Positions 21-52,710 of a stretch of 52,710 bases of DNA are shown piece by piece (within the stretch, counting starts at the first letter, position 1; each line of letters begins with the position of its first letter). Source of the DNA: Pseudomonas putida (lineage in GTDB: Bacteria > Pseudomonadota > Gammaproteobacteria > Pseudomonadales > Pseudomonadaceae); contig NZ_CP016446.1 in the NCBI RefSeq assembly GCF_002741075.1, forward strand, positions 1 through 52,710, written 5' to 3'. The notes below the pieces were generated by a model. It was not told where the DNA came from, did no database searches, and saw only the letters and a program-made list of their open reading frames with translations. The translations under genes were made by a program, and so were the position numbers.

Positions 21-389
21 ATGAGCGCTTATATCCTGAATCGTTTTCACATCTCCGCCATTCTCATGTTCACCTGCACCGGCAAGCCGGATGCGACCAC
101 CTACCAGATCCTTGCGGATCAAGGCCAGCAACTGCTTGACGAAAACATTCGCTCCGTGCGCACCCGCTACCCTGGCGAAACCTTCAAGGGCGAGCTGTTC
201 GGCCTGGATGAAACTGTGCGCAAACCTACCCCGCTCGAAGCCCTCAAACTCATCCAGTGCTTGGAGTATCAGTCCAACCAAAACCCCGACTATTACGCTA
301 CCCAGGCATTCCGCACCCTGCATGAAATTCGCCGCATAGCTCAGTCCAAGCTGCCGGGCTGGGACCAGACAAGTTGGGATTTTGTCTGA
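21..389 (+). CDS. Unknown plasmid protein, first gene of methyltransferase operon
   Basis: Encodes 122 residues starting MSAYILNRFHISAIL. The ATG sits just behind an AAGGAG ribosome site that belongs to the repeated leader module whose main body is at the far end of the window (52,167-52,710). I see no catalytic motif, signal peptide or membrane helix. Proteins beginning MSAYI with a similar mix of short helices are common unnamed plasmid genes, but I cannot give a function. Its TGA overlaps the ATG of the next gene (TGATG), so the two are probably translationally coupled. It is the first gene of a four-gene operon that includes a DNA methyltransferase, so a role in establishing the plasmid in a new host is possible but only inferred. 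Confidence 0.75.
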   Translation: MSAYILNRFHISAILMFTCTGKPDATTYQILADQGQQLLDENIRSVRTRYPGETFKGELFGLDETVRKPTPLEALKLIQCLEYQSNQNPDYYATQAFRTLHEIRRIAQSKLPGWDQTSWDFV

Positions 390-739
390 TGGCTGCGAAT
401 GCCCATCACGTAGCGCCGCCCATGTGGCGCTACTCCCTTCGATGGTGCCTGCCGCACCAGCCCTGCCCTGGCGACTTTGAGTTGCTGGTGATCGAGGCCC
501 CAGCGGGGACGCGGATGCCGGAAGAAATGCACCAGGCATGGCAGCGCCGCCCCGTGGGTTACGGTGTTTGCCTGGACTTCCCCCAGTCCCGCGCCGTCAA
601 GCGCTGGAGTGCCGAGGCCAAAGACCGGGTACGCAAGCAGAAGATGGCCAAGCGCATCGAGAAGGCCGCGCCGCTGTTCGCTGACGAGTTGATCGCCCGC
701 GAGCTGGAGCAGCGCCCCGACTACTTCAAGGGGGAGTGA
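389..739 (+). CDS. Unknown 116-aa basic protein
   Basis: I chose the ATG at 389, which overlaps the upstream stop (TGATG), over an in-frame TTG at 374. The 116-residue product is rich in Arg, Lys and Pro in its middle and ends in a helical, charged segment (about residues 70-116: KRWSAEAKDRVRKQKMAKR and following). No known domain is recognised. It lies between the first operon gene and the cytosine methyltransferase, ending 3 bp before the latter's start, with that gene's ribosome site (GGGGGAG) inside its last codons. This packing shows it is a real operon member. It might be a methyltransferase accessory factor, but nothing in the sequence proves this. Confidence 0.7.
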   Translation: MAANAHHVAPPMWRYSLRWCLPHQPCPGDFELLVIEAPAGTRMPEEMHQAWQRRPVGYGVCLDFPQSRAVKRWSAEAKDRVRKQKMAKRIEKAAPLFADELIARELEQRPDYFKGE

Positions 740-742
740 ACC

Positions 743-1831
743 ATGCTCAGTACGCAGATCCGCCCAGCACAGCCTGGGCTATTCACCGCCCAGGCCCTGG
801 GCGTTGACGACTTCGAGCTAAGCCAGATCACCGCCGAGTTCAGCGCCATTAGCTCGGGCGAGCTGGAGCACCACTTGTTCGACGCGCCTAGGCCGTCCGA
901 GATCGTGCGCCTGGCCGACAAGGTGGCCCGCCACACCCGGTCACACGGCTGGCTTGACCAGGCCGCCGCCCAAGCCCGCATTGCCGAATGGAAGCGCCAC
1001 GCCTTCGCCCAGGGCGAAGGGCGGGCCAATGCCGACAAGGTAGTGCTGTCGCTGTTCGACCATACCGGGCAGTGGTCGCAGCCGTGGGAGGATGCCGGCT
1101 ACCAGGTCCTGCGCTTCGACATACAGGACAACCCCGTTACCGGCGACGTAAACGAGTTCGGCGCCGGCTTCTTCGGTGACTGGTTTGGCGATTTCGACGG
1201 CCTGGATATCTACGCCATCCTCGCCGCGTGCCCGTGCACAGAATTCGCCACCAGTGGCGCCCGACACTTCGCAGCCAAAGATGCAGACGGGCGCACGGTT
1301 GCCGCCGTGCAGCTCGTTCACCAGACATTGCGCACCATTGAATATTTCCGGCCTGCCGTATGGGCCATCGAGAACCCGGTAGGTCGGATCGAAAAGCTGG
1401 GCGGCCTGCCGCCGTGGCGCCTAGCCTTCGACCCGCACCACCTGGGCGACCCGTACACGAAGAAAACCCTGCTTTGGGGCCGCTTCAATGCAAACCTGCC
1501 CATTGCCCCGGTCGAGGCCTCGGACGGCTCGAAGATGCACCGCAAGTTCGGCGGCAACCGCCTCGCCACCAAGAACGCCCGCAGCGCAACCCCGGAAGGG
1601 TTTTCCTACGGGTTCTTCATGGCCAACAACGCCCAGGACAACCCGGCGCTGGCCATAGCCTACAAATACGACCGACTCGACGCCGGCCTGCTACGCGCCG
1701 CGCTCGATGCTAATGTGAGCGCCCGCGAGATCGACGAGCTGGTGGCGGATGCTTACTACATGGACATGGACGATAGCGCTGCCGAGTCAGCGCTACGCCA
1801 AGCGATCTCTACACAGAACCCACCTACATAG
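743..1831 (+). CDS. Orphan C5-cytosine DNA methyltransferase-like protein
   Basis: 362 residues. From about residue 103 it shows a SAM-binding start (VVLSLFDHTGQWSQPWEDAG), then acidic DIQD at the end of the second strand, then AACPCTEFATSGARHF, which carries the catalytic Pro-Cys of motif IV. AIENPVGRI follows in the motif VI position (ENP rather than the usual ENV), then TKKTLLWG in the motif VIII area. These features fit the phage/plasmid branch of C5 methyltransferases rather than the classical Dcm/HhaI type. There is no partner restriction endonuclease nearby, so it is an orphan enzyme. It would methylate cytosine and could protect the incoming plasmid from host restriction. Target specificity cannot be read from the sequence. 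The residues after about 320 are helical and acidic, of unknown role. Confidence 0.75.
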   Translation: MLSTQIRPAQPGLFTAQALGVDDFELSQITAEFSAISSGELEHHLFDAPRPSEIVRLADKVARHTRSHGWLDQAAAQARIAEWKRHAFAQGEGRANADKVVLSLFDHTGQWSQPWEDAGYQVLRFDIQDNPVTGDVNEFGAGFFGDWFGDFDGLDIYAILAACPCTEFATSGARHFAAKDADGRTVAAVQLVHQTLRTIEYFRPAVWAIENPVGRIEKLGGLPPWRLAFDPHHLGDPYTKKTLLWGRFNANLPIAPVEASDGSKMHRKFGGNRLATKNARSATPEGFSYGFFMANNAQDNPALAIAYKYDRLDAGLLRAALDANVSAREIDELVADAYYMDMDDSAAESALRQAISTQNPPT

Positions 1832-14508: not shown

Positions 14509-15323
<815 letters not shown>

Positions 15324-21772: not shown

Positions 21773-23691
21773 GTGCGCCAGGCATGGCGCGTTGCGCGTT
21801 AGCGCAACTCGTTTGGCTGTGGTGGCCAAGCGGGTGACTTGGAGGTGAAAGTCCTCTACACACCCGGCAAGGGGAAGTGTTAGCCAGAGGCAAGGGTGTC
21901 GCGGGCGACTGCGAATCTGAAGGAAGCCCGAGGCAAAATGCTGGCCTGACGAACAGGAAGCGGATCAGGCGGCGTAGCGGGGTAAGACGGCGCAAATCGT
22001 CAAAGCCCAATACTTGCACGGAACGCTACGACGTAGATCCGACAGGCATAAGCAGGAAGGTCGCGCGAATTACCCTGGGAGATCTGCACGTTTGCCACGG
22101 TGCTACCGCGCGTCGAGAGGCGACGGGATGAGCGTGCAGAAGTCAGCCGAAGCCGTAATAAGTGGCGGTTAACCAAGCCACCAAGGGCCGAACAGGTTAT
22201 GCCGCCAGTAGGCGTCACTGTCTCGTGGGTAGCCGTAATGCAGAAATTTCCCGTCCAGGAAACTGTCACCCCGAGTCCCGGCCAGAAGCCGAGGATGATG
22301 CCTGACAGTGCAAAGGTGCCGACGACGTCATCGACGTGGACGAACGCGGAGCCGGACACGCTAATGGAGCGGGTGCTTGCACCGGCCAACCTCAGGCGTG
22401 CGTATAAACGTGTAGTCAGCAATAAGGGAGCGCCGGGTGCCGATGGCATGACGGTCGCCGACTTGGCGGGCTATGTGAACCAGTATTGGCCGATCCTCAA
22501 AGCCCGGCTGCATGCCGGTGAATACCATCCCCAAGCCGTGCGGGCGGTCGAAATCCCCAAACCGCAAGGCGGTAGCCGGCAACTGGGTATTCCCAGTGTC
22601 GTGGATCGCCTGATCCAGCAGGCTTTGCTACAACAACTTACGCCCCTCTTCGATCCGCTGTTCTCGGACTACAGCTACGGCTTTCGTCCGGGCAGAAGTG
22701 CTCACCAAGCCGTCGAGATGGCCCGTGCCCATGTGGCTTCGGGGCACCGGTGGTGCGTGGAAATCGATCTGGAGAAGTTCTTCGATCGGGTCAATCACGA
22801 CATCCTGATGGCGTGTATCGAACGCCGTATCGAAGACAAGAGTGTGCTCAGACTGATCCGTCGCTACCTTGAGGCCGGGGTCATGTTGGGCGGGATCGTC
22901 AGCCAACGGCAAGAGGGGACGCCGCAAGGCGGGCCACTTTCGCCGTTGTTATCGAATATCCTGCTCGATGAACTTGACCGCGAACTGGAGCGGCGGGGCC
23001 ATCGCTTCGTGCGCTATGCCGATGACGCGAACATGTATGTGCGCAGTTCTCGGGCTGGCGAACGGGTACTGGCCAGTGTCGAGCGCTTCCTGAAACAACG
23101 TTTGAAACTGACGGTGAATCAGAAGAAGAGTCGAGTCGCGAGAGCCTGGAAGTGTGACTACTTGGGCTATGGGATGAGCTGGCATCAGCAGCCAAGGCTG
23201 CGGGTGGCAACGATGAGCCTGGGTCGCCTGCGCGACCGGCTCGCAGGGCTGCTACGCGGTGCACGGGGTCGCAAGGTGATGAATACCATCGAGCGGATAA
23301 ACCCTGTACTACGAGGCTGGGCGGGTTACTTCAAGCTCAGCCAGAGCAAACGGCCACTTGAGGAGCTGGATGGCTGGATCAGGCACAAACTCCGCTGTGC
23401 CATCTGGCGCCAATGGAAGCAGCCCTCTACGAGGGCGCGCAACCTGATGCGTCTGGGCTTAAGCGAAGAGCGTGCCTGTAAATCGGCCTATAACGGCCGA
23501 GGCCCGTGGTGGAACTCGGGGGCGCCACATATGAATCAGGCGCTGCCGAAGAAGCTATGGGATCGACTCGGACTGGTCTCGATACTGGATACGATCAACC
23601 GGCTTAGCCGCATAGCTTGAACCGCCGTGTACGGAACCGTACGCACGGTGGTGTGAGAGGACGGCGGGTGTGAATCCGCCTCCTACTCGAT
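21773..23691 (+). mobile_element. Group II intron, probably class C
   Basis: Begins GTGCGCCAGGCATGG, the usual 5' end motif, and ends about CTCCTACTCGAT. Between them lies structured RNA sequence, a reverse transcriptase/maturase gene in domain IV, and a domain V-like hairpin straight after the stop codon (GCCGTGTACGG-AACC-GTACGCACGGT, about 23,619-23,653). It sits directly after an intrinsic terminator and in the same orientation, the known target of class C introns. Ends are assigned by motif and could shift by a few bases. Confidence 0.85.
22238..23620 (+). CDS. ltrA: Group II intron reverse transcriptase/maturase
   Basis: About 460 residues from Met 22,238; Met 22,298 is another possible start. 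Reverse transcriptase blocks are clear: KPQGGSRQLGIPSVVDRLIQQALL, YSYGFRPGRSAHQAV, CVEIDLEKFFDRVNHDIL, GTPQGGPLSPLLSNILLDELD, and the active site FVRYADDANMYV. A maturase (X/GIIM) domain follows with INPVLRGWAGYFKLS. There is no HNH endonuclease domain at the C-terminus, in line with class C. It promotes splicing and retrohoming to terminator-like targets. Confidence 0.93.
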   Translation: MQKFPVQETVTPSPGQKPRMMPDSAKVPTTSSTWTNAEPDTLMERVLAPANLRRAYKRVVSNKGAPGADGMTVADLAGYVNQYWPILKARLHAGEYHPQAVRAVEIPKPQGGSRQLGIPSVVDRLIQQALLQQLTPLFDPLFSDYSYGFRPGRSAHQAVEMARAHVASGHRWCVEIDLEKFFDRVNHDILMACIERRIEDKSVLRLIRRYLEAGVMLGGIVSQRQEGTPQGGPLSPLLSNILLDELDRELERRGHRFVRYADDANMYVRSSRAGERVLASVERFLKQRLKLTVNQKKSRVARAWKCDYLGYGMSWHQQPRLRVATMSLGRLRDRLAGLLRGARGRKVMNTIERINPVLRGWAGYFKLSQSKRPLEELDGWIRHKLRCAIWRQWKQPSTRARNLMRLGLSEERACKSAYNGRGPWWNSGAPHMNQALPKKLWDRLGLVSILDTINRLSRIA

Positions 23692-25634: not shown

Positions 25635-25661
25635 TCGCCCTGCCGTCATCCGAGGCATAGC

Positions 25662-26307
25662 GCGAGGCCTGCGGCCCGGGCTTTCGTGCTACGCATCGAG
25701 CCACAGCTACGCCGCGTCTCGCCCCTTCGGGCTTCAATCCCTCTCGCCTGCGCACCTGGCCCGCCAGGCGCTGCGCGCTCCGCTTGCCCTCCGGCCTGCC
25801 GGCCTGCGCGGCGGCCTGCTGGCCACCTTGCCGCCCCTGCGCGTCCTGGGTGTGCTCATCACCCTCCGGCTGGCCGCTATCAGCCCTAATCGCCTACCCT
25901 CCGCTGGGCCTATGCCGTCAAGGGGCTTTCGCGGCATATGCTCACTCCCTTCGGTCGCTCCGCTATTCCACGGTCCCCATGACGGCGGCCCAGCTCCGGG
26001 TAGTCGGGGCTTACCGCGACCAACCGAAGGCTGACGAGCAGATCCACCGGGGGAGATTCACGCTCCAGGGCAAAAGCGGGGCTGCACCCGCTTCGCGGGC
26101 GCGCTTTATGTTTACCTCCCGCTCCCACCTCGGCATCTAAGCAGCTCCGAAAAGCGCGCCGCGTCAAGTCAATTATTAGTCAAAGATTGTTTGACCAACA
26201 GTTGACGACAGCGCCCCGATTTGAGATACTAACCACGTCGAAGCAATACCGCCTCGACACCCCGGACACCAGCGGCAGCAACCGCTCCGGGGAATCTGCG
26301 AAGGAGA
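25662..26307 (+). repeat. Leader/promoter module, copy 1
   Basis: About 645 bp, near-identical to 28,828-29,477 and to 52,167-52,710 plus 1-17; I count roughly a dozen differences from copy 2. It has three parts: a GC-rich block with many Gly/Pro-like triplets, a segment rich in GTCAA/TTGAC motifs with a promoter, and a structured leader (hairpin CCGGA...AGCGG...CCGCT-CCGG) ending in a ribosome site. No copy carries a recognisable gene. It drives the DUF932 gene. Confidence 0.9.
26179..26230 (+). promoter_or_regulatory. Module 1 promoter and operator
   Basis: TTGACG (26,202-26,207), 17-bp spacer, GATACT (26,225-26,230). The palindrome GTCAAA-GATTG-TTTGAC (26,179-26,195) stands just upstream of the -35 and is a good repressor-site candidate. 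Confidence 0.75.
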
Positions 26308-26314
26308 TACAAAA

Positions 26315-27151
26315 ATGCGTCTTTCCAGCAACTTCCGTAATCCGTGCATGATCCGCAGCGATGCCCCTCTGACCAATGACGAGATTGCCCGCGTGGCGCC
26401 CTCGATCTTTGCCGAGGAAGCGCACGACAGCCGTTCGGAACGTTACCTGTACATTCCAACCGTCAAGGTGCTCGATGCGCTGCGCACAGAAGGTTTTCAG
26501 CCGTTCATGGCGTGCCAGACCCGCGTCCGCAACACCGACAAACGCGAGCACACCAAGCACATGATTCGCCTGCGCCATGCCAGCAACATCATGAGCAAGG
26601 AAGCGAACGAAATCATTCTGCTGAACAGCCACGACGGCAGCAGCAGCTACCAGATGATGGCCGGCAAGTTCCGTTTCGTGTGCGCTAACGGGCTGGTCCT
26701 GGGCGACATGGCGATGGATCAGAAAGTGCGCCACAGCGGCCGCATTGACGTTGTTAACGACGTTATCGAAGGTGCCTATGAGGTGCTGGGCCAGTTCGAG
26801 CAGATCGACGCCAACCTTGACGACATGCAGCACTACCACTTGCGCCAGGAAGAGCAAGAAGCGTTCGCCATGGCGGCCCTGGCCTACCGCTACGACCCAT
26901 CCGAAGGCCCTGCCCCGGTCACGCCGTCGCAACTGCTGATGCCGCGCCGTGCCGAAGACCGCGCAAGCGATCTCTGGACCACGTTCAACCGCGTGCAGGA
27001 AAACACCATCAAGGGCGGCTTGCGTGGCCGCAACAAGCAAGGACGCCGGACAACTACCCGCGCCGTTAACGGCATTGACCAAGACGTGAAACTCAATCGC
27101 GCCTTGTGGGTACTGGCCCAGGCCCTGCGCAGCGGTCAAGCCGCCGCGTAA
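26315..27151 (+). CDS. DUF932-family plasmid protein
   Basis: 278 residues, ATG 26,315 after GGAG. Features typical of the family are RYLYIPTVKVLDALRTEGFQP, RLRHASN, EIILLNSHDGSSSYQMMAGKFRFVCANGLVLGD and the C-terminal NRVQENTIKGGLRGRN, with a basic tail. DUF932 proteins are frequent on plasmids and phages, often in the leading region that enters a recipient first; their function is unknown. It is directly controlled by leader module 1 and followed by a strong terminator. Confidence 0.85.
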   Translation: MRLSSNFRNPCMIRSDAPLTNDEIARVAPSIFAEEAHDSRSERYLYIPTVKVLDALRTEGFQPFMACQTRVRNTDKREHTKHMIRLRHASNIMSKEANEIILLNSHDGSSSYQMMAGKFRFVCANGLVLGDMAMDQKVRHSGRIDVVNDVIEGAYEVLGQFEQIDANLDDMQHYHLRQEEQEAFAMAALAYRYDPSEGPAPVTPSQLLMPRRAEDRASDLWTTFNRVQENTIKGGLRGRNKQGRRTTTRAVNGIDQDVKLNRALWVLAQALRSGQAAA

Positions 27152-27157
27152 CTGGCG

Positions 27158-27180
27158 AGCCGGGCGTTAAACGCCCGGCT
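27158..27180 (+). terminator. Terminator after DUF932 gene
   Basis: AGCCGGGCGT-TAA-ACGCCCGGCT followed by TTCCC; strong stem with a short T-run, so it may act partly as an attenuator before the next genes. Confidence 0.7.
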
Positions 27181-27206
27181 TTCCCCCGCCCTTGGAGGAT
27201 CGAACC

Positions 27207-27635
27207 ATGTGCAAAGTCTTCTATGTCCCTGGCCATACCGCGATCATCGACTATGCCCGCCAGATCGGGCCAAACATGTGGATGGCCCAGCATTCCGGGC
27301 TGATGCTGCCCGAGCTGCGCGTGCGTTACCCCGGCGCCATCCTGGGCGACGAAGAGGCGTTTTTGATCGATCAAGAACGCGCCTATGGCACGCCACCGGC
27401 ACGCACGACCGCCGCCCGTTTCGAGTTCAACCTTTCGCAGCGCCCCGTCATCGACTACCACGCCGACGAGCTGGGCGCGTCGTTCAAGCTGGCCGACCTG
27501 GACCACGGCAACATGACGACCATTTTTGCCCAGTGGGGCGGGCGCTACTGGACCTTGACGGGCCTGGCCACCCTGCCCCACCTGCTCATCATGCGCCGCA
27601 TCGCTACCCACTCCCTGGCCGTGGCCAAGGCCTAA
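27207..27635 (+). CDS. Unknown 142-aa protein
   Basis: ATG 27,207 behind GGAGG. Product MCKVFYVPGHTAIIDYARQI... is mixed alpha/beta with no catalytic motif I recognise. It is followed 16 bp later by another unknown gene with its own ribosome site. Both are probably co-transcribed with the DUF932 gene or from a promoter near 27,180. Function unknown. Confidence 0.65.
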   Translation: MCKVFYVPGHTAIIDYARQIGPNMWMAQHSGLMLPELRVRYPGAILGDEEAFLIDQERAYGTPPARTTAARFEFNLSQRPVIDYHADELGASFKLADLDHGNMTTIFAQWGGRYWTLTGLATLPHLLIMRRIATHSLAVAKA

Positions 27636-27651
27636 GATCGAGGAACCGACC

Positions 27652-28155
27652 ATGACTTACGAACGCACGTTGGAAGCCTACCGATCGTTACTCAAGGCCA
27701 ACCCTGGGCATGGCCTGCTCATCCCTGGGGATTGCGTGGCGTTTCTGCTCGACTCTGACCAGCTTTACGCCTGCCAGGTGCAGGACGGTCGGCCACTTCT
27801 GGCGTGGATGTTTCCGATCACCGCCGAAGCCTGGGACGATGACGACGAAGCGTGGTTGTGCGATGCGGGCGGCCTGGAGACAGCCGACGCGATCAACGAC
27901 CCGCAGTTTGTGCCCCTGCTGATATGGGACCGCCAGACACTGGAAAGCGAAACCGTGGCGGCAGTCGCCGCCAAGGTTGGTACCAGTGACCAGGGCGTTG
28001 CCATTAGTATCGAGCGCAACAACGAGGGGACGTTTTACGTCATCTGGAAAGCCACCGCCCAGGGCGTCAAACGGCACCGGCTCCATGCCGGTTCCACAGA
28101 TGCCCGCCGCCTGGAAGCGCATGCGCGGGGCTTCATCGAGCAAATGAACCAGTAG
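27652..28155 (+). CDS. Unknown 167-aa acidic protein
   Basis: Product MTYERTLEAYRSLLKANPGH... has a strongly acidic middle (WDDDDEAW at about 60-67) and a basic C-terminal third (KRHRLHAGSTDARRLEAHAR). Acidic small plasmid proteins sometimes mimic DNA to block restriction enzymes, but I see no match to a known ArdA or Ocr, so this remains a guess. No membrane segment. Confidence 0.65.
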   Translation: MTYERTLEAYRSLLKANPGHGLLIPGDCVAFLLDSDQLYACQVQDGRPLLAWMFPITAEAWDDDDEAWLCDAGGLETADAINDPQFVPLLIWDRQTLESETVAAVAAKVGTSDQGVAISIERNNEGTFYVIWKATAQGVKRHRLHAGSTDARRLEAHARGFIEQMNQ

Positions 28156-28215
28156 CACGCTTGACCCGTAGCCCTGCCGGTAGCAGGGCATTCAGCCAAC
28201 AGTAAGGAACCGCGA

Positions 28216-28566
28216 ATGCAGCCCACCCAGCCGAAATACACCGCCGAACAATGGACCGCTTCCCTGCCTGCGCTCCGGGGCATGTCCACCAAGACCCTGG
28301 ACATTGCCAGGGCGGTGCTGGTGGAGGGCAAGGAACCTATCGAGGTGGCCAACAACATCGGCCAGTCGCGGCAGCTTGTACACGCTGCAATCAAGCGCGT
28401 AACCGCCGTGCTGGAACGCCAGACCGTCGGCCTTGTGCCCGTCATGGTCTGGCTCACCCCCGAGGAAGCCGAGCAGGTCAAGCAGATGGCCGCCAAACAT
28501 GAGCAGCCAAAGGAGGCCCAACCAGGGACCACAAAGAAGACACCTAACCGACAGAAAAAGGCCTAG
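28216..28566 (+). CDS. korA: TrfB/KorA-family transcriptional repressor
   Basis: 116 residues. Residues about 8-62 line up with KorA of IncP plasmid RK2: YTAEQWTASLPALRG, then LDIARAVLVEGKEPIEVANNIGQSRQLVHAAIKRVTAVLE against RK2 KorA IARGVLVDGKPQATFATSLGLTRGAVSQAVHRVWAAFE. The helix-turn-helix is ANNIGQSRQLVHAAIKRV. KorA binds palindromes in plasmid promoters to coordinate replication, stability and transfer genes. The canonical RK2 site GTTTAGCTAAAC is not seen; the GTCAAA-N5-TTTGAC palindromes of the three leader modules are candidates. The C-terminus is Lys/Pro rich. Confidence 0.85.
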   Translation: MQPTQPKYTAEQWTASLPALRGMSTKTLDIARAVLVEGKEPIEVANNIGQSRQLVHAAIKRVTAVLERQTVGLVPVMVWLTPEEAEQVKQMAAKHEQPKEAQPGTTKKTPNRQKKA

Positions 28567-28577
28567 ATGGCGCCTTT
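28557..28577 (+). terminator. Weak hairpin after korA
   Basis: AAAGGC ... GCCTTT with a 9-base loop, followed by CTG; a modest terminator at best. Confidence 0.35.
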
Positions 28578-28613
28578 CTGTCACGGACAGTTTGACTGCT
28601 GAGGGATTTGCAG

Positions 28614-28826
28614 ATGCTTACACCAACAGAGGAAAAGGGCGTGCTCGATTACCTGCCCTGCCTTGAATGGGTCGCCAGCGCCGAGGTTGCAGAGATCCGC
28701 CAGCGCCTGGAAACAGCGACCGGCCAAGTCCGCGAGGATCTGGTGACTGCGATCAAGCAACAAATGGGCGGGGGCCGTCCCGAATTGGCCTGGTACTTCC
28801 ACCACCTGGCCAGCGAGAAAATCTAG
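28614..28826 (+). CDS. Unknown 70-aa protein
   Basis: ATG 28,614 with GAGGG eight bases upstream. Product MLTPTEEKGVLDYLPCLEWV... is helical and ends WYFHHLASEKI, just before leader module 2. No family recognised. Confidence 0.55.
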   Translation: MLTPTEEKGVLDYLPCLEWVASAEVAEIRQRLETATGQVREDLVTAIKQQMGGGRPELAWYFHHLASEKI

Positions 28827-28827
28827 T

Positions 28828-29477
28828 GCGAGGCCTGCGGCCCGGGCTTTCGTGCTACGCATCGAGCCACAGCTGCGCCGTGTCTCGCCCCTTCGGGCTT
28901 CAATCCCTCTCGCCTGCGCACCTGGCCCGCCAGGCGCTGCGCGCTCCGCTTGCCCTCCGGCCTGTCGGCCTGCGCGGCGGCCTGCTGGCCACCTTGCCGC
29001 CCCTGCGCGTCCTGGGTGTGCTCATCACCCTTCGGCTGGCCGCTATCAGCCCTATTCGCCTACCCTCCGCTGGGCCTATGCCGTCAAGGGGCTTTCGCGG
29101 CATATGCTCACTCCCTCCGGTCGCTCCGCTATTCCACGGTCCCCATGACGGCGGCCCAGCTCCGGGTAGTCGGGGCTTACCGCGACCAACCGAAGGCTGA
29201 CGAGCAGATCCACCGGGGGAGACTTACGCTCCAGGGCAAAAGCGGGGCTGCACCCGCTTCGCGGGCGCGCTTTATGTTTACCTCCCGCTCCCACCTCGGC
29301 ATCTAAGCAGCTCCGAAAAGCGCGCCGCGTCAAGTCAATTATTCGTCAAAGATTGTTTGACCAACAGTTGACGACAGGGCCGCGATTTGAGATACTAACC
29401 ACGTCGAAGCAATACCGCCTCGACACCCCGGACACCAGCGGCGGCAACCGCTCCGGGGCAATCTGCGAAAGGAGATT
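28828..29477 (+). repeat. Leader/promoter module, copy 2
   Basis: Second full copy of the module at 25,662-26,307. It carries the palindrome GTCAAA-GATTG-TTTGAC (29,345-29,361), promoter TTGACG (29,368-29,373) with 17-bp spacer and GATACT (29,391-29,396), and the structured leader ending in AAAGGAG before the gene at 29,484. Confidence 0.9.
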
Positions 29478-29483
29478 CAACCC

Positions 29484-29738
29484 ATGACTATCGAAACCCA
29501 CATCCTGTATTTCAGCGAAGCCGAGGCCCTGCGCGAGTTCAGCGGCTTCACCGTTGAAGTGTCCCATCAGGCTCGCCCGAACCAGACCCCATCCAACGTC
29601 ACCATGTACATGATCGTTGCCCAGCGTGGCGGCATCGGTCGCCGCGAGGTGATCGCGGAGTTCCCGCTGGAAATGCACGCCACGATCTTCCGTGACATGT
29701 GCGAAGGCTTTGTGCGCAGCGAGCGCCTGACCAAGTAA
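29484..29738 (+). CDS. Unknown 84-aa protein
   Basis: Directly behind leader module 2. Product MTIETHILYFSEAEALREFS... is a small alpha/beta protein with no known motif. A second hairpin leader follows it. Being under the repeated strong leader suggests an early or abundant product; function unknown. Confidence 0.6.
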   Translation: MTIETHILYFSEAEALREFSGFTVEVSHQARPNQTPSNVTMYMIVAQRGGIGRREVIAEFPLEMHATIFRDMCEGFVRSERLTK

Positions 29739-31135: not shown

Positions 31136-31179
31136 TGGATTGTGCAATCCAGTTTAATAGAAGTGGATTGCGCAATCCA
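31136..31179. promoter_or_regulatory. Palindrome copies 2 and 3
   Basis: TGGATTGTGCAATCCA (31,136-31,151) and TGGATTGCGCAATCCA (31,164-31,179), centres 28 bp apart. They lie directly upstream of the sprT-like gene, where an operator would be. Confidence 0.7.
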
Positions 31180-31181
31180 GG

Positions 31182-31307
31182 GCGAGGCCTTCGGCGCGGG
31201 CTGTCGTGCTGCGCATCGAGCCACGGCTGCGCCGCGTCTCGCCCCTTCGGGCTTCCATCCCTCTCGCCTCCGCGCCCGGTTCCCAGGCGCTGCGCGCTCC
31301 GCTTGCC
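31182..31307 (+). repeat. Degenerate fragment of the leader module
   Basis: Matches the first ~125 bp of modules 1 and 2 (GCGAGGCCT ... CGTGCTGCGCATCGAGCC ... CGCTCCGCTTGCC) with many differences, and lacks the promoter and leader. It is probably an older, decayed copy. Confidence 0.8.
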
Positions 31308-33060: not shown

Positions 33061-33199
33061 GGCACCCCTGGGCGGCGAAAGCCCTCACGCTGCGCGTGAG
33101 GGATCAGGAGGACGCTTTTTTGCGGCCTCCGAGGGGTGCAGACGACTATTTTTTCCCTTAAAAGCAGAGCGGTATTTTCCCTTAACGAGCTATACACCA

Positions 33200-33345
33200 T
33201 ACGCAACGCTTCGCGTAGCTAAGTCGTTGAAAAATAAAGCATTTTCAACGACTTGCGGAAAAGCGTAATACCTGCGTAAGACAAAAGTACGCGCAGGCCC
33301 TGATTTTGCTGTATTTTGTGTCTTACACACGTCAGACAAGGAGGC
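33200..33345. other. oriT: Probable oriT
   Basis: AT-rich, gene-free DNA between the stb repeats and trwA. It contains a 13-bp perfect inverted repeat, AAGTCGTTGAAAA/TTTTCAACGACTT (33,221-33,254), then CTGCGTA ... TACGCGCAG (33,272-33,297) enclosing AGACAAAAG. On the minus strand this reads TTTTGTCT-TACGCAGG, like the TrwC nic motif TTGTCT-ATAG, so I propose nicking between 33,278 and 33,279. A second, inverted TGTCTTAC lies at about 33,320. Transfer would then lead with the stb side, leaving trwABC for last, as in R388. Confidence 0.65.
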
Positions 33346-35218: not shown

Positions 35219-38173
35219 ATGCTCGATATCACGACCATTTCTCGGCAATCACTGGGCAAAGTCGTGTCGTACTACGCGGATGGTGCGGATGACTACTACG
35301 CAAAAGACGGCGGCGCCATGCAATGGCAAGGTGCCGGCGCCGAGGCATTGGGCCTGTCCGGGGAGGTAGAGCAGGCCCGATTCCGCGAGCTGCTGGATGG
35401 CCGGATTAGCGACAACACGAAGCTCATGCGGACCGTCAAAGAGGCGGACGGCAAAGTGGTCAGCAAGGAACGGCTGGGGTACGACCTCACATTCTCGGCA
35501 CCCAAGGGCGTGTCGCTCCAGGCCTTGGTCCACGGTGACGCCAGTATCATCGAAGCCCACGACAAGGCCGTGGCGGCGGCGATCCGCGAAGCTGAACGGC
35601 TGTCCCAGGCGCGAATCACGGTCAACAAGAAGACCGGCACCGAGAACACCAACAACTTGGTGGTGGCCAAGTTCCGACACGAAACGTCACGCGCCCTGGA
35701 CCCCGACCTGCATACCCATGCGTTCGTGCTGAACATGACCCAGCGTAGCGACGGCGAATGGCGGGCACTGAAAAATGACGGCGTGTTCAATTCGTCCATG
35801 TTCTTGGGCAACGTCTACAAGGCGGAACTGGCCCGCGAGCTGGAAAAGGCCGGCTTCCAGTTGCGCTATGAGCGCAACGGCACATTCGACCTGGCGCACT
35901 TCTCCGATGAGCAGATCCGCGAATTCAGTTCGCGCAGCCAGCAGATCGAGGCAGCGCTAGCGGCGAAAGGCCTGGACCGCAGCACAGCGTCATATGCCGA
36001 AAAAAACCAGGCCGCGCTGGCCACCCGCGACAAAAAGCAGGGTGGCATCGACCGCGAGGAACTGCGCCAGGTTTGGCTGGAGCGGTCGAGGGCCTTGGGT
36101 ATCGACTACCACAGTCGCGAGTGGGCCGGCGTCGGCGCCGATGCCCAGGGCGGCAACGAGCGAAGCAGCGCGGCCACTCCGCAGATCGAGAAGCCCCTGG
36201 AGTACCGTGCAGACCAGGTAATCGAATTCGCGATCAAGAGTCTGACCGAACGCCAGGCCGTGATCGGACAGAAGGAGCTGATGGATACCGCGCTGCGCCA
36301 CGGGTACGGCGCACTCACCATCGACGACGTGCGCGCCGGCATCGAGCGGCGAGCCGCATCTGGCCACCTGATCCGCGAGGAACCGCTGTACTCATCGCAG
36401 AACCCAGCCGATGGAAAGAAGGGGAAGGCCGCCGAGAAGGCCCGCCAGGAGGCGCCACAGCTCAGCCGGAAGGAATGGGTGGCAAACCTTGTCCGTGCCG
36501 GCAAATCGCGCTCAGAGGCCGCCAGGCTCGTTGATGAGGGTATCCGCACGGGACGGCTGCGTCAGGGTGAAAGCCGTTTCACCACGCACATCGCGCAAAA
36601 GCGCGAACGCGAGGTGCTGCAAATCGAGCGAATGGGGCGCGGTACAGTTCAGCCGCGGATCTCCAAGGAAGCCGCCGAAGCCTTCCTTGCCGATCGGGGC
36701 TTGAACGCGGAACAGCAGTCCTCGGTGATGCGGATCGCCCGCACACAAAACCAGTTCATCGGCGTGCAGGGCTTTGCCGGCGTCGGCAAAAGCTACATGA
36801 CTGTAGCGGCTAAGGATCTGCTGGAAGCGAACGGATACCGTGTCACCAGCCTGGCGCCCTATGGGAGCCAGGTAAAGGCGCTCCAGGCCGAGGGCCTGGA
36901 GGCGCGCACTCTGCAATCATTCCTCAAGGCCCGCGATAAGAAGATCGACAGCAACACCGTCGTGATTATCGACGAGGCCGGCGTAATTCCTGCGCGGCAG
37001 ATGCACGAGGCCATGAAAACCATTGAGGCTGCCGGCGCTCGCGTTGTCTTCCTGGGCGACGTGGCACAGACCAAAGCTATCGAGGCCGGCAAACCCTTCG
37101 AGCAGTTGATGAAAGCCGGCATGGAAACGTCCCGGCTGACCGACATTCAGCGGCAGAAAGACCCGCAGTTGCTGGAAGCGGTGAAGCTGGCCGCCGAGGG
37201 CAAATCCAAACAATCGCTGCCGCTGGTGAACGAGATACGCGAGATCGAGGACAACGGGGCACGCTACCAGGCCATTGTCGAAGCCTACGCCTCGATGCCA
37301 AAGGCCGAACGTGACCAGGCGCTGATTATCACCGGTACTAACGCCAGTCGGATCGAGATCAACGAAGGGGTGCGCGAGGCGCTGGGCCTGAAAGGACAGG
37401 GCGCGGAATATCCATTGCTCAATCGCCTGGATACGACACAGGCCGAGCGCCGGCATAGCAAATACTACGGCAAGGGCAGCATTGTCGTACCCGAGGTGGA
37501 CTATAAGAACGGGCTGCAACGGGGCGTGCAGTACGTGGTACTCGACACTGGTCCCGGCAACAAACTCACCGTGCGGGGGCCGGAAGGCGAGAGACTGCAA
37601 TTCACCCCGGCTCGATGCACAAAGCTGTCGGTCTACAGCGTCGAGCGAACTGAGCTGGCTCCTGGCGATCAGGTGAAAATCACCCGGAACGACGCCGAAA
37701 AGGACCTGGCCAACGGCGACCGATTTGTGGTGAAGGAGATCCACAGCGACCGTGTGGTGCTCGAAGGCGACAAAGGCCGCCAGGTCGAGCTGGACACCGC
37801 ATCGGCTATGTTCGTCGGCCTGGCATACGCCTCGACCGTTCACAGCGCCCAGGGCCTCACCTGCGACAAGGTACTCATCAACCTTGAAACCCAGTCGCGC
37901 ACGACCGCCAAGGACGTGTACTACGTGGCGATCAGCCGCGCCCGTCATGCAGCGGAAATCTTCACCGATAACCGGCAGAAGCTGGGGGCTGCGATCAGTC
38001 GCTTGAATGCCAAGGCCGGCGCCCTGGATATCAAGCAGCTCCAGCGGCATGCGCTCGAGCGCAAAGGACACGACCAGGCCGGCAAACAGAAGGACGCCGC
38101 GCAGAAGCAACAGCAAGGCCAGCAGTTGCCGACCAAGCAGCCTAAAGAAAAGGGCAGGGCATTCGGCCTGTAA
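35219..38173 (+). CDS. trwC: MOBF relaxase-helicase TrwC-like
   Basis: 984 residues against 966 for TrwC. The relaxase domain (1-300) has the paired tyrosines Tyr18/Tyr19 and Tyr26/Tyr27 (VVSYYADGADDYYAKDGG) and the histidine cluster RALDPDLHTHAFVLN. The RecD-like helicase part has Walker A GFAGVGKSYMTV, Walker B VVIIDEAGVI and the late motif VHSAQGLTCDKV. It nicks oriT, stays covalently on the 5' end, is exported and unwinds DNA. The C-terminus is Gln/Lys-rich and probably the secretion signal. A terminator follows. Confidence 0.97.
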   Translation: MLDITTISRQSLGKVVSYYADGADDYYAKDGGAMQWQGAGAEALGLSGEVEQARFRELLDGRISDNTKLMRTVKEADGKVVSKERLGYDLTFSAPKGVSLQALVHGDASIIEAHDKAVAAAIREAERLSQARITVNKKTGTENTNNLVVAKFRHETSRALDPDLHTHAFVLNMTQRSDGEWRALKNDGVFNSSMFLGNVYKAELARELEKAGFQLRYERNGTFDLAHFSDEQIREFSSRSQQIEAALAAKGLDRSTASYAEKNQAALATRDKKQGGIDREELRQVWLERSRALGIDYHSREWAGVGADAQGGNERSSAATPQIEKPLEYRADQVIEFAIKSLTERQAVIGQKELMDTALRHGYGALTIDDVRAGIERRAASGHLIREEPLYSSQNPADGKKGKAAEKARQEAPQLSRKEWVANLVRAGKSRSEAARLVDEGIRTGRLRQGESRFTTHIAQKREREVLQIERMGRGTVQPRISKEAAEAFLADRGLNAEQQSSVMRIARTQNQFIGVQGFAGVGKSYMTVAAKDLLEANGYRVTSLAPYGSQVKALQAEGLEARTLQSFLKARDKKIDSNTVVIIDEAGVIPARQMHEAMKTIEAAGARVVFLGDVAQTKAIEAGKPFEQLMKAGMETSRLTDIQRQKDPQLLEAVKLAAEGKSKQSLPLVNEIREIEDNGARYQAIVEAYASMPKAERDQALIITGTNASRIEINEGVREALGLKGQGAEYPLLNRLDTTQAERRHSKYYGKGSIVVPEVDYKNGLQRGVQYVVLDTGPGNKLTVRGPEGERLQFTPARCTKLSVYSVERTELAPGDQVKITRNDAEKDLANGDRFVVKEIHSDRVVLEGDKGRQVELDTASAMFVGLAYASTVHSAQGLTCDKVLINLETQSRTTAKDVYYVAISRARHAAEIFTDNRQKLGAAISRLNAKAGALDIKQLQRHALERKGHDQAGKQKDAAQKQQQGQQLPTKQPKEKGRAFGL

Positions 38174-44225: not shown

Positions 44226-45293
44226 TTAACCTGCTCGGCGTGAACCTCTAGCCATGCCTTGCATGGCCGAACCCACAGCGCTCGCGGCTGCTCCAGCGGC
44301 TCCGGCAGCCGCGCCACCTGCTCCAGCCGCTGCGCCACCACCAGCTCCTGCCGCTCCTGCACCGGAGCCAGCGCCGGCACCGGCACCGCCTTTGCCGCCG
44401 CCACCCGCACCCTGGCCCCCGCCACCTTTGCCTGGGCGTTGACGGCCCGGTACGAACTGCACCGAGACACCACTGCCCCACGACGCGGCCAGGTCGGGGA
44501 TCTTCTTGAGAACAAACCACGTCACCACGGTCAGAAGGCCGCAAGTGATGATTGGTACCAAGATCGGCGAGTCGGCTGCCGGATCTGCCGCCGCCGCCAC
44601 CGCTTTGCCGTAAAACTTCATCAGCAGGCCGAAGGTGGCAGACAGCAGGATGGTTATCAGCCCGAAGTTGATAACCGAACCAATCCACTTCGAGAACAGT
44701 TCGCGCAGGGAGTCGAACATCAGGCACATGATAAAGATCGGCCCGAAACAGACCGCGATGGCCAGCATAAACTTGGCCATCAGGATCAACGCCGCACCAA
44801 TGCCGCAGACCAGCACCGTGGAAAGAAGCACCGCAGCAGCCAGCAAGAAGCTCGCAAGGCCTGCACCACTGGTCACGCCTGCGTTATCAAATGCGCGCTG
44901 CGCGGTTTTCAAGCCATTCTCCAGTGCCTTGTCAATGGTACTGGCGACTTCGTTCTGCACGTTGGAACCCGACTTGCCATCGACAATCAGGATCGAGGCG
45001 AACTCATCAGGCGTTTTCAGCGCTACATCAGCGAGATCGCGCTGATACCAACCGCCTGCTGACGAGATGCTCAGAATGAGTCCCCAGAAGGCGAACTTCT
45101 TGAGCATGTCGGTCAGCGGTTCGCCATCACCGCCGTAGAGTTTGAAGGTGCCTTCGACCATGAGAACAATGGTTAGGCCCAGGGCAACCAACGGCGTCAC
45201 GGCGGCAATGATGGTTGCCACGTTCGACGCCACTAACTCCTTGGACACTTCGTCCATGTAGCTGAATATCTGAGTCGTTGCGTTATAGGCCAT
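44226..45293 (-). CDS. virB6: VirB6 inner-membrane protein with Gly/Ala-rich tail
   Basis: 355 residues. TrbL/VirB6 fold with several membrane segments (NVATIIAAVTPLVALGLTIV; AFWGLILSISSAG; FLLAAAVLLSTVLVCGIGAA; ILMAKFMLAIAVCFGPIFIM; VINFGLITILLSATFGLL; ILVPIITCGLLTVVTWFV). From about residue 280 it becomes a low-complexity Gly/Ala tail of about 75 residues. VirB6 forms the inner-membrane entry of the DNA channel. Confidence 0.93.
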   Translation of the reverse strand: MAYNATTQIFSYMDEVSKELVASNVATIIAAVTPLVALGLTIVLMVEGTFKLYGGDGEPLTDMLKKFAFWGLILSISSAGGWYQRDLADVALKTPDEFASILIVDGKSGSNVQNEVASTIDKALENGLKTAQRAFDNAGVTSGAGLASFLLAAAVLLSTVLVCGIGAALILMAKFMLAIAVCFGPIFIMCLMFDSLRELFSKWIGSVINFGLITILLSATFGLLMKFYGKAVAAAADPAADSPILVPIITCGLLTVVTWFVLKKIPDLAASWGSGVSVQFVPGRQRPGKGGGGQGAGGGGKGGAGAGAGSGAGAAGAGGGAAAGAGGAAAGAAGAAASAVGSAMQGMARGSRRAG

Positions 45294-52166: not shown

Positions 52167-52710
52167 CTGCGCACCTGGCCCGCCAGGCGCTGCGCGCTCC
52201 GCTTGCCCTCCGGCCTGTCGGCCTGCGCGGCGGCCTGCTGGCCACCTTGCCGCCCCTGCGCGTCCTGGGTGTGCTCATCACCCTCCGGCTGGCCGCTATC
52301 AGCCCTATTCGCCTACCCTCCGCTGGGCCTATGCCGTCAAGGGGCTTTCGCGGCATATGCTCACTCCCTCCGGTCGCTCCGCTATTCCACGGTCCCCATG
52401 ACGGCGGCCCAGCTCCGGGTAGTCGGGGCTTACCGCGACCAACCGAAGGCTGACGAGCAGATCCACCGGGGGAGACTTACGCTCCAGGGCAAAAGCGGGG
52501 CTGCACCCGCTTCGCGGGCGCGCTTTATGTTTACCTCCCGCTCCCACCTCGGCATCTAAGCAGCTCCGAAAAGCGCGCCGCGTCAAGTCAATTATTCGTC
52601 AAAGATTGTTTGACCAACAGTTGACGACAGGGCCGCGATTTGAGATACTAACCACGTCGAAGCAATACCGCTTCAACACCCCGGAAACCAGCGGCGGCAA
52701 CCGCTCCGGG
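52167..52710 (+). repeat. Leader/promoter module, copy 3 (continues at position 1)
   Basis: Lacks the first ~95 bp of copies 1 and 2 but is otherwise near-identical. Operator palindrome at 52,598-52,614, promoter TTGACG (52,621-52,626), 17 bp, GATACT (52,644-52,649). Its leader hairpin ends at the window edge and its ribosome site GAATCTGCGAAGGAG is at 1-15, before the gene at 21. Thus the window is circular and this module drives the methyltransferase operon. Confidence 0.9.

Follow-up and report, generated by a model that had tools for sequence, protein, structure and literature searches.

What do three long, nearly identical repeats without a recognised gene do on a circular Pseudomonas plasmid? 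The question is raised by a plasmid of the pMOS94/pCT14 lineage from Pseudomonas putida (RefSeq assembly GCF_002741075.1, contig NZ_CP016446.1), whose whole stretch of 52,710 nucleotides (nt) is referred to below as the window. The replicon of this lineage has been described, and the accessible portion of that description makes no mention of the three repeats (PMC6614342). An initial annotation had proposed that the repeats are single-strand promoters of the F-plasmid Frpo type or, as a second idea, a long structured regulatory RNA. Our analysis showed that each repeat contains a hairpin of a conserved, strand-specific class present on mobile DNA across phyla, which is a larger finding than that of the annotation. 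We propose, at close to even confidence, that each module is a two-stage switch, in which a hairpin serving as single-strand promoter or primer site would be combined with a second promoter under the control of an ArdK-type repressor.

Sequence comparison of the window placed module A at 25,658-26,314, module B at 28,824-29,483 and module C at 52,167-52,710 plus 1-20, across the origin. All three are about 650 base pairs (bp) long and share one direction, with the genes that they serve on the plus strand. Pairwise identities over the common length were 96.2% (A/B), 96.8% (A/C) and 97.0% (B/C), and a 300-nt piece of the GC-rich part was 99-100% identical between copies, so the near-identical modules of the annotation were recovered as described. 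Each consists of a GC-rich structured block, an imperfect hairpin of about 190 nt and a double-strand promoter. The block, said to be kept in all copies, is complete in A and B, but C lacks its first ~90 nt, and besides the three full modules there is a partial copy of this first block at 31,179-31,307. The module is a single piece in the window, but BLAST of its pieces against R388, R46, IncP-9-like and other plasmids found block, hairpin and operator/promoter separately and in differing copy numbers. For the window and 11 named plasmids with both stb and the relaxase gene in the stretch covered, the pieces found were one-directional relative to these genes; the sole reverse match among the 12 was a weak one, in which the hairpin aligned with its own other arm.

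Hairpins within one genome were 94-99.5% identical (ten pairs), against a median of 74% between genomes (266 pairs; the highest value, 99.5%, was between two plasmids of this lineage). Identity within a plasmid far above that between plasmids fits gene conversion between the copies. The copies are probably kept alike by conversion to one another, and tolerated, which would answer the point of the annotation that long repeats are costly because they invite recombination.

The minus strand near 33,200 carries TTGCGTATGGTGT/ATAGC, which is homologous to GTGCGTATTGTCT/ATAGC of R388. Homology to R388, with the position presumed for the nick within the R388 word, puts the nick of this oriT nic region (33,181-33,240, minus strand, TTGCGTATGGTGT^ATAGC) between 33,194 and 33,193. 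A nic site identical to that of the window was found in pMOS94, pGLE121P3 and p7_2.3, and a MOBF (TrwC-type) relaxase gene lies at 35,219-38,173 on the plus strand (PF08751, E 4.3e-85). Judged by the nic homology to R388, the transferred strand is the minus strand. The order of entry would then be stb, module B (3.7 kb from nic) and module A (6.9 kb). For the genes behind all three modules the transferred strand is the template, and the nic site thereby agrees with the strand assignment of the annotation. The location in a leading region with genes templated by the transferred strand was found both from nic and from the orientation of the hairpin relative to relaxase genes (see below), with module C as the distant member.

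On the minus strand, module A forms a long imperfect hairpin at 25,852-26,041 (77 pairs in the 206-nt piece folded), with a core, GTGGAATA..GCGAAAGC, at 25,925-25,971. By fold and core match, the hairpins of modules B and C lie on the same strand at 29,018-29,207 (core 29,091-29,137) and 52,271-52,460 (core 52,344-52,390). Folding of whole modules gave z scores of -5.4 for A and -6.1 for B (20 shuffles each), and the plus strand of the module folded about 26 kcal/mol worse than the minus strand. Among 24 distinct copies, drawn from Pseudomonas genomes and plasmids and from R388, all 24 folded better on the minus-type strand, by 6.8-16 kcal/mol. A stable stem-loop on the transferred strand, as in Frpo/ssi sites, is therefore present. 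When 20 of these 24 hairpins were aligned (alignment A1; three near-duplicates and R388 excluded), 98.9% of cells were paired, 13 of 47 pairs had a compensatory change, and a U.G pair on the transferred strand was invariant in all 20. The covariation score was 0.203 compared with 0.070 in shuffled alignments (0/500 as good) and at most 0.039 when the structure was slid; on four of five measures 0/500 shuffles were as good, and on the fifth 2/500. The covariance model built on A1 scored 154-181 bits on the minus-type strand and 35-62 bits on the other, most of the scored sequences being the model's own.

Searches of Rfam at the gathering threshold and at E<=1 found no family that fits the hairpin core. 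A known RNA family was ruled out, matches to mir-680 and to a Bacillus-plasmid family being far under their thresholds. Elsewhere in the window, the minus strand also folds 15 kcal/mol better than the plus strand at 44,291-44,496, in the type IV secretion gene region.

The hairpin extends well beyond Pseudomonas. The A1 model matched R388 (two diverged copies, E 8e-4), F (E 2.8e-4) and ColIb-P9 (E 7e-5). On F and ColIb-P9 it was the apical core that matched, ahead of a gene for a 227-amino-acid (aa) DNA methylase (PF01555) on the opposite strand, at sites apart from Frpo1 and Frpo2 of F and from the Frpo-like sites of ColIb. At least 5,000 plasmid records were matched in a BLAST search with the F site. 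With the pattern GTGGAATAnCGnAG-(5-32)-GAGnATATGCCGCGAAAGC, the core was found in 15 IMG/VR contigs and, among one-per-species genomes, in at least 119 stretches. Titles among the 80 stretches listed were of Actinobacteria, Firmicutes, Alpha-, Beta- and Gammaproteobacteria and one Desulfovibrio. The reversed pattern was absent from 50 genomes. Per genome the core is rare: the pattern occurred in 2 of 299 genomes of the phylum and the A1 model was positive in 4 of 298 genomes of the family (source genome included in both), and the rest of the source genome outside the window had no match to the pattern. In open-licence PMC papers, five core words had no occurrence, and no description of the core was found there either.

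Conservation of structure holds across this range. In a pan-phylum alignment of 56 of the 81 non-redundant copies, nine of ten inner pairs never varied, the U.G pair among them (56/56), and the tenth was C-G, G-C or U-A. The outer stem had a covariation score of 0.270 against 0.104 shuffled (0/500; maximum 0.142 when slid), and pairs changed on both sides numbered 9 against 8.1 (92/500 shuffles as good). Of all 81 copies, 77 folded better on one strand, and the outer arms had 15.8 pairs compared with 6.8 in shuffles, the real value being higher in 49. Because the 81 copies share descent within lineages, the p-values given here and below are not for independent samples.

The core is also oriented relative to transfer genes. 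A relaxase search covered 50 of the 80 listed genome loci. In these 50 core-bearing genomes, 21 of 84 cores (14 contigs) were on the same contig as a TrwC (PF08751) relaxase, and for 20 of the 21 the nearest such relaxase was on the other strand, an arrangement also seen in R388 and the window; the exception was one of two cores on contig G944:C9. Placement on the leading side is possible for only some of the 21. Among 14 contigs with more than one core, ten had all cores on one strand. The genes templated by the core strand are DUF932, SSB-containing or zincin-type operons in Pseudomonas plasmids and R388 (by annotation), ParB-like genes about 80 nt away in Leifsonia-type plasmids (by Pfam in two), and, in Arsenophonus, F and ColIb-P9, N6 methylase genes about 105-110 nt away. 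A gene for an HUH-type Rep-like protein preceded the core by 132-155 nt in ten contigs (nine from IMG/VR and one from a genome), several of them near-copies, and all ten had the core on the Rep strand; the Rep-like call rests on a REP_ORF2-G2P match below cut-off (E 4e-4) in the one tested and on HIH/HLH/HFH and Y motifs identified by eye. In an inovirus with a Zot-domain packaging protein, the core was on the gene strand.

A promoter-like signal was detected in the 3' arm of the hairpin. The sigma70-like score there was 4.71 compared with 3.86 in shuffled arms over the 81 copies (p 1e-13) and also exceeded that of downstream sequence, and TANNNT occurred 22-26 nt after the core on the core strand in 42 of 81, where downstream positions led us to expect 1.9. 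For left-reading promoters, the 81 copies gave no signal in the 5' arm (p 0.39) or the whole 5' flank (p 0.30). The signal was clearest in the 30 copies that are actinobacterial by title, among the 65 whose title was seen: TANNNT was present in 23 at a fixed distance from the core, and the score was 4.53 against 3.66 when the TTGAC-bearing stem was kept and the rest shuffled (p 4e-9). The -35 zone was paired with the 5' arm in 69% of copies and the -10 zone in 34%. In module A, a -35-like TTGACG lies at 25,916-25,921 on the minus strand, with five of its six bases paired and at a position matching the promoter-like signal, and a weak -10-like TAGGCG follows 19 nt on, at 25,891-25,896.

The most obvious promoter of the module lies elsewhere. 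TTGACG-17-GATACT with its flanks occurs three times in the window and in 0 of 100 shuffles. In module A this promoter (26,191-26,230, plus strand) consists of the repeat TTGACC-N5-TTGACG at 26,191-26,207, of which the -35 occupies 26,202-26,207, and the -10 GATACT at 26,225-26,230; pattern matching placed its counterparts, also on the plus strand, at 29,357-29,396 in module B and at 52,610-52,649 in module C, where the leader crosses the origin to position 20. The initial annotation would have this promoter become active in a single-strand hairpin, but the transferred-strand fold pairs the -35 and leaves the -10 GATACT unpaired in copies A and B. This geometry favours the reading of TTGACG-17-GATACT as an ordinary double-strand promoter of ArdK type, which we consider likely. 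The single-strand promoter idea therefore fails at the obvious promoter, and what supports it is the long hairpin in the GC-rich part, 160 nt upstream, with its compensatory changes, its strand preference (24/24) and its orientation (20/21).

A palindromic operator had also been noted, and GTCAAAGATTGTTTGAC does occur exactly three times in the window, once in each module. It is better read as part of five TTGAC half-sites, two of which form an ArdK-type direct repeat at the -35: in the array GTCAA-N6-GTCAA-N7-TTGAC-N6-TTGAC, which contains the palindrome, half-sites mirror the -35 repeat. ArdK of R388 binds such direct repeats and tolerates spacers of 3-5 bp, according to the accessible part of PMC9723621, and all three modules carry a TTGACA-type direct repeat over the -35, as in the ArdK regulon. 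A KorA-type inverted repeat at the -10 was ruled out, the repeats sitting at the -35. When TTGAC-N4-7-TTGAC followed by a fair -10 was searched in 12 records, 16 sites were found in four of them, all on the strand of the leading genes (three in the window, four with a 4-bp spacer in R388 and nine in two IncP-9-like plasmids), and none in the other eight, R46 included.

The plasmid also encodes a candidate repressor. The fourth gene behind module A (28,216-28,566, plus strand) encodes an ArdK-like protein of the KorA/TrfB family (PF16509, E 5.8e-13; PDB 7bbq, E 1.1e-10), with identities of 36% to R388 ArdK, 28% to R46 ArdK, 42-56% to ArdK-like proteins of five other plasmids and 17-23% to three KorA proteins. 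By these pairwise identities it belongs to the ArdK branch of KorA-family repressors. By analogy with R388, this protein likely shuts the module promoters off at a later stage.

Taken as a working model, the two-stage switch would run as follows. On the entering strand, RNA polymerase is predicted to use the hairpin as a single-strand promoter and also as a primer site. From the geometry, the 3' arm would be the non-template and the 5' arm the template of the promoter within the single-stranded hairpin, and RNA polymerase would leave the base of the hairpin toward the 5' end of the strand, into the DUF932 gene, the 84-aa gene or the methyltransferase operon. Priming of the second strand by the RNA made from the hairpin is a further possibility, as has been reported for Frpo. 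After second-strand synthesis the hairpin promoter would point the other way and early transcription would stop. Once double-stranded, the operons would be driven by TTGACG-17-GATACT, until the ArdK-like protein made from the module A operon bound the TTGAC repeats of all three modules and closed the loop. A function as single-strand promoter or primer site is the best-supported working of the hairpin, not a proved one. We also considered, tentatively and with more doubt than for the modules themselves, that conjugative plasmids, filamentous phages and rolling-circle elements all share one universal single-strand start signal, a hairpin loading RNA polymerase, with a core near-identical to the letter from Proteobacteria to Actinobacteria and Firmicutes, which would start the first genes, prime the second strand and have been overlooked on F and ColIb-P9.

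Several observations weigh against the two-stage switch or its extension. Module C lies about 33 kb from nic, beyond inserted resistance DNA, and in seven relatives (L025, L026, L028 and L030-L033) a toxin-antitoxin pair of RelE/ParE type, running in the opposite direction, separates the hairpin from the next ArdK-type promoter region. Four of the 14 multi-core contigs have cores on both strands. Where a motif-matched PF03432-type relaxase is present (19 loci, mostly actinobacterial, Pfam tested in one), all 19 have the core on the same strand as the relaxase gene and 0.7-1.1 kb upstream of it, a comparison with the relaxase strand and not with the transferred strand. In a microvirus, core and genes lie on opposite strands, the core strand not being known to be single-stranded, and Firmicutes copies lie 24-71 nt behind transposase-like genes, without an obvious single-stranded stage. 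In these transposase, microvirus and PF03432-type contexts the promoter may be used on duplex DNA, or the single-strand reading may be incomplete. The embedded promoter raises its own difficulties. A -35 and -10 reconstituted in the stem is clear in actinobacterial copies, but weak in the window and elsewhere: in 35 other copies the score with the stem kept was 4.80 against 4.66 (p 0.35), with TANNNT in 8 of 35 where 1.5 were expected, and the promoter of the window is poor (TTGACG, TAGGCG), other sites on both strands scoring equally. The positive control failed as well, since the same promoter scan of the 3' arm does not recover the Frpo promoter known from F. With the window promoter poor and that of F unrecovered, the embedded-promoter part of the model rests on relatives.

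Among the rival explanations, the one with most in its favour is that the hairpin is a priming site only, for a primase or primosome, with gene expression incidental and the GC-rich block maybe a second site. The invariant core pairs point to a single specific binder, only Actinobacteria have a secure promoter-like signal, the GC-rich block is itself structured with compensatory changes, and the core occurs on the gene strand of an inovirus and beside HUH-type Rep genes, where priming is needed and expression of genes at the 5' side is not. A primase would have no need, however, of the fixed sigma70-like promoter in the actinobacterial 3' arm; the complementary-strand origin of phage G4 matched at chance level, and AAGCGG in the block, which resembles the n' primosome word, was not confirmed as such by a search of papers. 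We regard priming alone as unlikely, though well worth keeping in mind. More improbable is an element of double-stranded DNA, in which the 3'-arm promoter reads away from the operon and a cruciform or operator upstream is bound by some regulator. That promoter would work on a duplex too, it points to the relaxase operon in the 19 of 19 PF03432-type loci, and the microvirus copy is on the unpackaged strand, but a duplex promoter needs neither strand-specific pairing (77/81) nor the long outer arms (15.8 against 6.8 pairs).

The second idea of the annotation can be put as a structured regulatory RNA of the minus strand, antisense to the operons, with structure kept for protein binding. The structure and its G.U pairs are specific to the minus-strand sequence, and some copies are in sense orientation behind transposase-like or Rep-like genes, possibly within their messages. 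Promoters that would transcribe the hairpin as RNA nevertheless scored below shuffles (4.64 against 4.82), so none was enriched, no Rfam family was matched, and the divergent gene of Leifsonia-type plasmids has its start codon about 80 nt from the core, so that a promoter outside the coding region would hardly fit. This idea is not favoured, and we give it little credence. That the modules are merely a duplicated promoter region of the CUP kind, with the GC-rich part neutral debris kept alike by gene conversion, is very improbable. Copies within a plasmid are indeed nearly identical and the CUP repeats of IncN plasmids are a known parallel, but compensatory changes and a core invariant across phyla point to selection on structure and largely refute the explanation.

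Compared with known systems, the proposed working of the hairpin is closest to that of the Frpo/ssi sites. Frpo1 and Frpo2 of F are single-strand promoters in vivo (PMC9849209), and leading regions cluster anti-defence genes with Frpo-like sites (PMC11541004); the words DUF932, Pseudomonas and IncN are absent from the accessible main text of the latter. Judging by the accessible parts of these two papers, likenesses include the leading-region location, a stem-loop on the transferred strand, an operon templated by that strand and repeated copies before genes of anti-defence type. The present hairpin differs in its sequence-conserved core across phyla, both kinds coexist on F and ColIb-P9, and its function is a prediction from sequence and folds. 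Searches with the F Frpo1 and Frpo2 sequences matched F and ColIb only, and none was found in the window, R388, R46, L026 or L029; with no similarity in sequence, membership in the Frpo type, as annotated, was ruled out, and the likeness is one of working. M.EcoGIX, a single-strand methyltransferase of an IncI1 plasmid, has been argued to be expressed from the entering strand via an upstream Frpo (PMC7736820, as far as accessible). On ColIb-P9 and F, the element directly ahead of the methylase gene is the present hairpin, not an Frpo homologue; that these methylases are homologues of M.EcoGIX would follow from a statement on IncI1 and IncF plasmids in the accessible part of the same paper.

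As in the ArdK regulon of the IncW plasmid R388, leading-region promoters have a TTGAC direct repeat at the -35 and the plasmid encodes a KorA-family ArdK-like repressor (PMC9723621, in its accessible part); the modules differ from that regulon in a spacer of 5 bp instead of 4 and in the mirrored extra half-sites upstream. With the CUP repeats of the IncN plasmids pKM101 and R46 they share conserved, ArdK-controlled repeats upstream of several leading-region operons (PMC6289460 and PMC5371602, as far as accessible). R46 also has a stretch similar to part of the GC-rich block, and to the block only, on the leading-gene strand (79-80% identity over 40-66 nt); the 50 kb of R46 that were searched had no match to the hairpin model. 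The G4 complementary-strand origin resembles the modules in having hairpins on single-stranded DNA, and its primer region contains the word GGCGAAAGCC. With E 0.032 in 11 kb, the hairpin model matches that origin at chance level, and a G site of the G4 type was ruled out.

The GC-rich block lies on the minus strand at 25,658-25,845 in module A (gc5), at 28,824-29,011 in module B and, truncated, at 52,167-52,264 in module C. The partial fourth block, also on the minus strand, has 89% identity and neither hairpin nor promoter; it is situated between stbC and an SprT-like gene, and in relatives such as L025, L031 and L029 a copy sits at a similar location. The module A block has the nearly invariant word AAGCGGAG near 25,780, and AAGCGG is kept in 20 of 21 sequences. 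On the transferred strand the block has a consensus fold of 19 pairs in 21 sequences, five with compensatory change (a count made without a shuffle control). Coding was ruled out by 1-nt insertions or deletions between relatives and by stops in every frame of copy A, though some relatives have an open frame; the annotation was right to see no gene in the block. R46 and an E. coli plasmid carry the block unaccompanied by the hairpin, and part of the block matches many other plasmids.

The gene behind module A (26,315-27,151, plus strand) is a DUF932 gene (PF06067, E 1e-50), and a leader hairpin, CCCCGG..CCGGGG, lies ahead of its ribosome-binding site at 26,260-26,293 on the same strand. Module B is followed by an open reading frame of 84 aa (29,484-29,738, plus strand), to which no function is assigned and which matched no Pfam family. 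The operon behind module C (21-1,831, plus strand) includes a 362-aa gene at 743-1,831. The pMOS94 counterpart of this gene carries the annotation DNA cytosine methyltransferase; 743-1,828 matched no Pfam family. Megablast matches to the first 24 kb of the window were dominated by resistance DNA. A group II intron occupies 21,899-23,691 (Rfam matches to D1-D4 and end parts), and an AAC_AAD_leader/attI match at 15,236-15,309 lies in a class 1 integron region.

The Firmicutes neighbours of the core are transposase-like genes of Mutator and IS240 type by Pfam and two that are weakly rve-like, and one core lies ahead of an ISL3 transposase gene. In L063 and L078, from Geobacillus-like bacteria, the core is 24 nt behind a gene of 411 aa (in L063 a Mutator/IS256-type transposase by Pfam), L107, L113 and L122 have a sequence context in common with L063 and L078, and other transposase-like genes in Lachnospiraceae are also near a core. 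On the F plasmid, an annotated hypothetical gene ahead of the methylase gene (53,784-54,089; 8,785-9,090 of L034) covers the hairpin and may not be a gene. Two contigs labelled Vibrio cholerae 35D (L102 and L110; WNZI01000034 and WNZI01000040) have a relaxase type and a hairpin otherwise from Arthrobacter-like bacteria, and this assembly may be contaminated.

In the literature covered, the expression of anti-defence genes before the entering DNA becomes double-stranded has been worked out for the Frpo/ssi sites of F-like and IncI1 plasmids. Being compact and well conserved, the present hairpin lends itself to searching, deletion and testing. If the proposed reading is true, the same early-expression step would exist in MOBF plasmids of Pseudomonas, carriers of carbapenemases included, in IncW plasmids and in plasmids of Actinobacteria, and F and IncI1 plasmids would have a second site for it, before the kind of methylase whose early expression was postulated.

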